In this document: positions 16,096-18,849 of the stretch, piece by piece | How the letters are laid out: the number at the start of each line of letters is the position of its first letter | Numbering within the stretch: position 1 is the first letter of the stretch | Assembly: GCA_903904005.1 (NCBI GenBank) | Contig: CAIVAR010000181.1 | Coordinates: 1 to 47,152 of the forward strand | Length of the DNA: 47,152 bases | Origin: an uncultured Anaeromyxobacter sp. | GTDB taxonomy: Bacteria; Myxococcota; Myxococcia; Myxococcales; Anaeromyxobacteraceae | Direction of reading: 5' to 3' | Notes under the pieces: generated by a model | Databases searched by the model: none | Told to the model about the DNA's origin: nothing | What the model saw: only the letters and a program-made list of their open reading frames with translations | Program-made: the position numbers and the translations under genes

Positions 16096-18849
16096 TCACC
16101 CCGAGGCGAGTGGCGTCCGGCGAGCGCCGCGCCGCGTCATGATCTTCTCGAACCCCATCGCGGGAAGGATCACGATCCCCACCAGCGCGGCACGCCCGAG
16201 GTCCCAGGGGTCGAGCGGCGCCGTGCCGAAGACCCGGTGCATGAAGGGCGTGTAGACGAAGATCGCCTGCAGCCCGAGGATGGCCGCCACCCCGAGGAGC
16301 ACGGCCGGGTTCTCCCGCAGGCCGGTCGCGAAGAGCGACCGGTCGAAGGAGCGGGACTCGAGCAGGTAGAAGACCTGGAAGAAGATCACGCTCGTGACCG
16401 TGAGCGTCTGCGCCTCGGCGAGCGCCCGCACCGGGTCGACCCCGGCGGCCAGTTCCCTGTGCCACTCCCAGAGGAAGAGCCCGACCGCGCCGGCGGTCAT
16501 GAGGGTGGCGGCGAGGGCGGTGCGGCGAAGGACGAGCGCCGAGAGGATGGGCTCCGCCGGGGGGCGGGGCGGTCGCCGCATCACGTCCCGCTCCTTGCCC
16601 TCGAAGGCGAGCGGGAGGGCCAGCGTCACCGCCGCCACCAGGTTGATCCAGAGGAGCTGGGTCGGGCGCACCGGGAGGAGCAGGGCCTGGGTGGCCGCGT
16701 CGAAGGGGAAGGCGAACACGGCGCAGACGAAGATGAGTGCGAGCCCGAGGTTGGTGGGGAGCACGAAGGCGAGTGACTTGACGAGGTTGTCGTAGACCCG
16801 CCGCCCTTCCTCGACGGCCGCGACGATGGTCGCGAAGTCGTCGTCGGTGAGGACCATGTCGGCGGCCTCCCGGGACACGGCGGTGCCGGTGATCCCCATG
16901 GCGACGCCGATGTCGGCCTGCTTCAGCGCGGGCGCGTCGTTGACGCCGTCGCCGGTCATGGCCACCACGTGCCCCTCCTGCTGCAGGGCGCGGACGAGCC
17001 GCAGCTTCTGCTCCGGCGAGACCCGCGCGAAGACGTGGGAGCCGCCCGCCAGCGGCCGCAGCGCCTCCTCGTCGAGCACGGCGATCGCGCCCCCGGTCAC
17101 GGCGGAATCGCCCTCCCCGATGAGCCCGAGCTGCCGCCCGATGGCCTGCGCGGTCCCCGGGTGGTCCCCGGTGATCATCTTCACCCGGATGCCTGCCGAC
17201 CGGCAGGCCGCCACCGCGGCGATGGCCTCGGGGCGCGGCGGGTCGATCATCCCCACCAGCCCGACGAGCACGAGGTCACGCTCCACGTCGGCCGGGACGA
17301 GGGTGTCGCCGGGCGCGTCCCACGGGCGCGCCGCCACCGCGAGCACCCGCATGCCGCGCGCCGCGCGCGCCTCCACCTCCGCCATGACCCGGCGGACGTC
17401 GACCCCGGCGCCCCCGGCCATCGAGGCGCAGCGCGCCAGCACGGCCTCCGGTGCTCCCTTCACCAGGAGTCGACGGGCCCCGCCGGGAAGGCGGTGGAGC
17501 GTGGCCATGTACTGGTGCTCCGACTCGAACGGGAGCACGTCGAGTCGCGGCGAGGCGGCCCGGAGCGCCTGCGCCTGGAGGCCGGCCTTCCCCGCCGCCA
17601 CCACCAGCGCCGCCTCGGTGGGATCCCCGGTCACCGCGAATCCGTTCCCGGCCCGCTCGACGCCGGCGTCGTTGCAGAGGGCCGCCACCGCGAGGAGGTC
17701 GAGCGCCTCCGCCCCGGGAACGACCGGTGCTCCCGCCGCGAGGAAGCGCCCCTGGGGTGCCCAGCCCGTTCCCTCCACGTCGAGCGGGCCTGCGGGGGTC
17801 CAGAGGGAGAGAACCGTCATCTCGTTGCGGGTGAGGGTGCCGGTCTTGTCGGAGCAGATGACCGTGGTGGAGCCGAGGGTCTCGACGGCCGGCAGCTTGC
17901 GGATGATGGCGTGCCGGGCCGCCATGCGCTGCACGCCGATGGCGAGCGCGATGGTGACGATGGCGGGGAGACCCTCGGGGATGGCGCCGACGGCGAGGGA
18001 GATGGAGAAGACGAGCATCTCCCGGAGCGCCTCGCCGACCGGGACCCCCTGGCCGACGCTCCGCCAGGTCCCGACCGCCATCATGACGGCGGTGAGGGCC
18101 AGGATGCCGATGGTGATGGTCTTGCCCACCTGGGCGAGCGCGCGGGTGAGCGGGGTCTCGAGCGTGTCGGCCTGGCGGAGGAGTCCGGAGACCTTTCCCA
18201 GCTCGGTGCGGTCCCCGGTGCCCACCACGAGCCCGGTGGCGGTCCCGGAGGAGACGAGCGTCCCGGCGAAGGCGAGGCAGCGCTGGTCGCCGAGGGAGGT
18301 CTCCGCCGGCAAGGGGCTCGTGCCCTTCTCCGCCGGGACCGACTCGCCGGTCAGGGCCGCCTCCTCGACCCGGAGCCCCTTCACGGCGAGCAGGCGGAGA
18401 TCGGCCGGCACCTTGTCGCCGGAGGCCAGCGCCACGATGTCCCCGGGCACGAGCCCGGCGAGCGGCACGGCGCGCCGCTCCCCGTCCCGCATCACGGTGG
18501 CGGAGTCGGGCACCAGGTCGGCGAGCGCCTCGATGGCCCGGCTGGCCCGGTACTCCTGGAAGAAGCCGATGAGGGTGTTCACGATCACCACCGCGCCCAC
18601 CACGGCGGCATCGGTCCGCTCCCCGAGCGCCGCCGCCACCGCGGCCGCCGCCACGAGGACCAGGATGAGGGGGCTGTCGAGCTGCCGCCAGAGGATGCGC
18701 CAGGGGCCATCCCCCGCGGCGCGGGCGAGCAGGTTCGGACCGTGGACCTCGAGCCTCCGCGCGGCCTCGGCGGTGGTGAGACCGTCCGGGCCGCTCTCGG
18801 TGAGGGAGAGGGCCTCGTCGGAGGTCAGGGCGTGCCAGGTGGTCGGAAT
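16096..18849 (-). CDS. P-type cation-transporting ATPase, probable ATT start codon
   Basis: Type II (calcium-ATPase-like) cation pump of the inner membrane, 917 residues from the proposed start. Cation_ATPase_N region at residues 1-60 (TWHALTSDEALSL, LTTAEAARRLEVHGPNLL), TGES in the actuator domain, the phosphorylated Asp334 in SDKTGTLT, KGAPE in the nucleotide domain, MITGDHPGTA, TGDGVNDAPALK hinge motif, and a C-terminal helix bundle. The reading frame upstream of codon 66 (GTG at 18654) contains a complete N-terminal domain but no ATG, GTG or TTG back to the stop at about 18933. The ATT at 18847-18849 lies 8 bases after AGGAG and gives (M)PTTWHALTSDE, exactly where homologues start. Substrate (Ca, Mn or a monovalent ion) is not resolved. 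Confidence 0.92.
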   Translation of the reverse strand: MPTTWHALTSDEALSLTESGPDGLTTAEAARRLEVHGPNLLARAAGDGPWRILWRQLDSPLILVLVAAAAVAAALGERTDAAVVGAVVIVNTLIGFFQEYRASRAIEALADLVPDSATVMRDGERRAVPLAGLVPGDIVALASGDKVPADLRLLAVKGLRVEEAALTGESVPAEKGTSPLPAETSLGDQRCLAFAGTLVSSGTATGLVVGTGDRTELGKVSGLLRQADTLETPLTRALAQVGKTITIGILALTAVMMAVGTWRSVGQGVPVGEALREMLVFSISLAVGAIPEGLPAIVTIALAIGVQRMAARHAIIRKLPAVETLGSTTVICSDKTGTLTRNEMTVLSLWTPAGPLDVEGTGWAPQGRFLAAGAPVVPGAEALDLLAVAALCNDAGVERAGNGFAVTGDPTEAALVVAAGKAGLQAQALRAASPRLDVLPFESEHQYMATLHRLPGGARRLLVKGAPEAVLARCASMAGGAGVDVRRVMAEVEARAARGMRVLAVAARPWDAPGDTLVPADVERDLVLVGLVGMIDPPRPEAIAAVAACRSAGIRVKMITGDHPGTAQAIGRQLGLIGEGDSAVTGGAIAVLDEEALRPLAGGSHVFARVSPEQKLRLVRALQQEGHVVAMTGDGVNDAPALKQADIGVAMGITGTAVSREAADMVLTDDDFATIVAAVEEGRRVYDNLVKSLAFVLPTNLGLALIFVCAVFAFPFDAATQALLLPVRPTQLLWINLVAAVTLALPLAFEGKERDVMRRPPRPPAEPILSALVLRRTALAATLMTAGAVGLFLWEWHRELAAGVDPVRALAEAQTLTVTSVIFFQVFYLLESRSFDRSLFATGLRENPAVLLGVAAILGLQAIFVYTPFMHRVFGTAPLDPWDLGRAALVGIVILPAMGFEKIMTRRGARRTPLASG

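Follow-up and report, generated by a model that had tools for sequence, protein, structure and literature searches.

Structure of the ATPase locus

The locus under study carries a gene for a P2-type cation ATPase, encoded on the reverse strand of a 47,152-nt stretch of DNA from an uncultured Anaeromyxobacter sp. (the window). The window is contig C181 of G000, a draft assembly of 4.56 Mb in 186 contigs. The coding sequence was delimited by its open frame and its Pfam domains and occupies positions 16096..18849 (-), which is 917 codons counted from an ATT, followed by a TGA stop at 16098-16096. An initial annotation had proposed that translation begins at this ATT, and its description of the start region was borne out when the frame was checked. 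No ATG, GTG or TTG occurs from the upstream in-frame stop (TGA, 18934..18936, -) to a GTG at codon 66 (18652..18654, -), the first canonical codon in frame. Apart from the ATT (18847..18849, -), the frame from that stop to the first domain contains neither an ATH codon nor a CTG, and translation from the ATT reads (I)PTTWHALTSDE, as had been stated. The 8-nt distance given between AGGAG (18862-18858) and the ATT is exact. The full Shine-Dalgarno (SD) sequence is GAGGAG (18858..18863, -), and the spacer may extend its pairing (AGGAGaTcATC against AGGAGGTGATC).

The N-terminal cation-ATPase domain, which the annotation had called intact in frame, was matched over the whole of its profile (Cation_ATPase_N, PF00690, positions 1-69 of 69, E = 1.3e-16) by residues 5-72 (18634..18837, -). 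Since the match is complete from residue 5, the full domain requires a start at or very near the ATT, and it is lost if the start is placed at GTG 18654. Upstream lies a divergent gene for a small protein (MYGTIRRYKLAK...; 19065..19343, +), taken from the ORF list, so the ATPase gene has its own intergenic leader. The start region of this neighbour also adjoins the ATPase gene in G002, a second genome of the genus. Downstream, on the same strand as the ATPase, is a gene for a probable multihaem c-type cytochrome (15206..16054, -), with the function read from CxxCH motifs alone. Rfam gave zero matches anywhere in the window.

Pfam identified the complete P2-type set of domains in the ATPase (PF00690, PF00122, PF13246, PF00702 and PF00689), covering the N, A, P, N-binding and C-terminal domains, and the P2-type motifs DKTGT, TGES, GDGVND and PEGLP were all found in the translation. 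Its best solved relatives are LMCA1, SPCA1 and SERCA. The closest of the solved structures by sequence is LMCA1 (6zhf), a bacterial P2A Ca2+-ATPase that has the same full domain set and the same PEGLP in M4. However, the Asn-Asp of LMCA1 in M6 (NLVND) is replaced by NLVAA in the window ATPase. The M6 Asp coordinates Ca2+ in Ca2+-ATPases. Scores against the NCBIfam Ca2+-ATPase equivalogs fell below their cut-offs (648 bits vs 798 for the PMR1 type and 562 vs 703 for the SERCA type), and with these scores and no M6 Asp the protein lacks these two marks of a Ca2+-ATPase of the SERCA/PMR1/LMCA1 kind. Because close relatives lack the M6 Asp as well (NLVAA or NLVAT), this subfamily may carry an ion other than Ca2+.

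Conservation of the start region and competing explanations

Four genomes of the genus were compared. One other, G002, likewise a draft assembly, has an ortholog of 83% identity; the gene order around it is conserved, and it adjoins the same divergent neighbour. The gene is absent from the remaining two. Inspection of the orthologous codon, which the initial annotation had put forward as a check, revealed an ATC aligned with the ATT and located 9 nt after GGAGG. In the G002 ortholog the frame opens after a TAA that lies 14 codons upstream, and the GTG at codon 57 is the first canonical codon in it. An in-frame TGA that had been flagged in this ortholog is simply the ordinary end of its reading frame, at codon 911. 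The start is thus kept non-canonical in both congeners that have the gene (n = 2 sequences). Distinct homologues that could be anchored numbered 106. All of them but G002 (105 of 106) have a canonical start level with the ATT region or above it, which indicates that the domain boundary is right. Homologues from another genus of the family (G013, G008) start with ATG.

Purifying selection acts on codons 2-65. Between the window gene and G002, dN is 0.14 and dS is 0.51 over these codons, and 21 of the 37 base differences are third-position changes. Coding-type codon bias starts no more than 2 codons from the ATT. Only 1.2% of the Ile codons in the genome are ATT, so that ATC would be expected at almost any ordinary internal Ile.

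SD strength was computed as duplex energy against the 3' end of 16S rRNA, assuming the consensus tail, with 310 called genes of the genome as the reference. The duplex for the ATT (-11.5 kcal/mol) is among the strongest 7% of those genes, and that for the G002 ATC (-12.8 kcal/mol) falls in the strongest 3% against the same 310. Moderate SD-like pairing is common in this GC-rich sequence. Since pairing of -8.7 kcal/mol or better turns up at 17% of random positions, the SD alone is support, short of proof.

It is improbable that the gene starts instead at GTG 18654, in which case the protein would lack the N-terminal domain and the conservation upstream would be left over from a true start that was lost recently. 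Although many genes of this genome do begin with GTG (120 of 331 calls), the internal GTG is not shared between the two species: codon 66 is CTG in G002, and the GTG at codon 57 of G002 is CTC in the window gene. SD pairing at GTG 18654 is weak (-4.3 kcal/mol, below most genes), and the selection on codons 2-65 in both lineages speaks against a start beyond them. Such a protein would also begin within the first transmembrane region, severing PF00690.

A sequencing or assembly error hiding a true ATG is slightly less probable still. The assembly is a draft and ATT is one base from ATG, but G002 has a different base in the same codon, so that an error would need two independent events, and the remainder of the ATPase frame is intact. 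Sequencing error does not account for ATH codons that differ between two separate assemblies in the same position.

The near-cognate CTG at codon 8 (18826..18828, -) is a very improbable start. It is identical in both species, but the conserved WHAL takes its Leu from this codon, and relatives with canonical starts have CTC or CTG there too; the codon is conserved because the protein's Leu is conserved. Its SD pairing is weak (-2.0 kcal/mol), and a start there would drop the conserved Trp-His. Frameshift entry from an out-of-frame upstream ORF, as trpE in the same genome appears to use, has just as little to recommend it: there is a window ORF from TTG -170 or ATG -164 with a 25-nt overlap of the ATT, but it is not conserved (in G002 the overlapping ORF begins at -50 or -8, and its peptide is different), and no common slippery site was seen in the aligned leaders of the window gene and G002. 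Initiation at the ATT, the explanation originally offered, therefore stands as the best reading, with the congener making both sequencing error and the internal GTG unlikely.

Rarity of such starts in the genome and the case of trpE

To see whether start-codon use is relaxed throughout the genome, 549 gene calls were scanned over 692 kb, or about 15% of its length. Only the ATPase gene and trpE showed strong coding signal over more than 50 codons ahead of their first canonical start, which speaks against a general relaxation, although the sensitivity of the scan is incomplete, as infC was missed at the strict threshold. With these two alone among 549 calls, the anomaly exceeds chance. Weaker cases, with about 20 codons of coding signal upstream of the first canonical start, were seen at L202:1228-1797 (G000:C15, +) and L131:9851-10393 (G002:C237, -); either may reflect a non-canonical start, a frameshift or a broken gene.

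The infC gene starts with ATC in all four genus genomes (L148, L138, L156, L142). Given this and the small number of cases in the scan, AUH initiation seems to be in use in the genus without being general. In the sister genus, infC apparently has a CTG start (L147, L153, L145, L146). It has an ATT start in another family of the order (L134, L136), and other members have ATG. Outside the genus, the order members examined have infC with ATC, ATT, CTG or ATG.

The trpE gene flagged by the same scan (G000:C25:32861-34381; locus L184 spans 32861-34400, -) lies outside the window. Together with its orthologs (L185-L189, L228-L238, L240), 18 trpE 5' ends from the family were examined. In most family genomes the trpE frame is without a canonical start near its beginning. 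At all 18 of the 5' ends a mini-ORF in a different frame, e.g. MTVFLWR-stop, begins with ATG (GTG in one), and all 18 have GGTG-NNN-CTT-TGG-C in the mini-ORF frame, with trpE resuming in the +1 frame after the CTT. CTT makes up 0.2% of codons. The prfB genes of the same family have GGGGG-TCN-CTT-TGA-C (23/23), and the prfB CTT-TGA site is a known +1 frameshift site. The layout in trpE is that of prfB, except that the Trp codon UGG takes the place of the stop UGA in the A site. Distant members of the order mostly have trpE with an ordinary ATG.

Across the family, expression of trpE thus seems to depend on a prfB-like +1 frameshift at CUU_UGG, and this site is a candidate direct sensor of tryptophan. 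If the frameshift is real, ribosomes would stall at UGG when charged tRNA-Trp is scarce, and the stall would promote a +1 slip from CUU to UUU, switching on anthranilate synthase. We found no description of a trpE +1 frameshift in the literature searched. It may outweigh the ATPase start in importance.

Proposed initiation at AUU and known genes of this kind

We infer from the gene anatomy, the two-species conservation, the SD strength and the selection on codons 2-65 that the ATPase is translated from AUU at 18849, held by an extended SD and read with a mismatch by initiator tRNA, with low output. We put the probability of this reading at roughly 0.87. The strong extended SD would place the 30S subunit on the AUU, and initiator tRNA would read AUU or AUC with a third-position mismatch, leading to low, rate-limited synthesis of the pump. 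The predicted AUU/AUC start is a feature shared by two species. What is conserved would be the weak AUY start, with the triplet itself free to vary (AUU here, AUC in the sister species), and the presence of two different weak codons, ATT and ATC, in the same position points to a weakness that is itself tolerated or selected.

IF3 is known from infC to select against AUU and AUC. Output of the ATPase may likewise fall as IF3 activity rises, and infC-like control by IF3 is possible. That the AUY start has been selected as a regulator, so that pump synthesis tracks IF3 activity (or growth state) along with infC, strikes us as doubtful; if true, a cation pump of this genus would be coupled to the state of the translation machinery. 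To our knowledge, few bacterial genes outside infC have AUU or AUC starts. Gene finders restricted to ATG, GTG and TTG would truncate the ATPase and drop a whole domain, and further genes with AUU/AUC starts may stay hidden from them. It is plausible that the weak start keeps the pump scarce, since S. aureus reporters with AUU or AUA starts and an extended SD gave about 10% of AUG expression in poor medium (PMC13009471).

The ATPase gene is best read as joining the known class of genes initiated at AUU, AUC or AUA, which includes infC, pcnB, cvfC1 and ccpN. Its full conserved protein is unreachable from any canonical start, and an ATH codon stands at the start of the domain with an SD spacer of 8 nt (ATT) or 9 nt (ATC). 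In E. coli, infC, the gene for IF3, starts with AUU. Like the ATPase gene, infC combines an ATH start codon with a good SD, and within this genus that codon is ATC. The two differ in that infC encodes IF3 itself, giving direct feedback, whereas the ATPase gene encodes an ion pump, for which a feedback loop is not apparent. A closer parallel in one respect is pcnB, which is also a non-translation gene and in which the AUU start limits expression. The pcnB protein is unrelated to the ATPase, and low output is reported to have been demonstrated for pcnB but is predicted for the ATPase.

The AUU start of E. coli pcnB is given by Binns and Masters 2002, as referenced in PMC13009471, and PMC13009471 itself gives AUA as the start of S. 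aureus infC. In S. aureus, cvfC1 (AUU) and ccpN (AUA) have strong extended SDs and are conserved between species, with their starts established by Ribo-RET and reporters (PMC13009471). The ATPase gene resembles these two in its non-canonical start, its strong extended SD and the retention of both across species. It differs from them in that its triplet varies (ATT/ATC) and the evidence for its start comes from sequence comparison.
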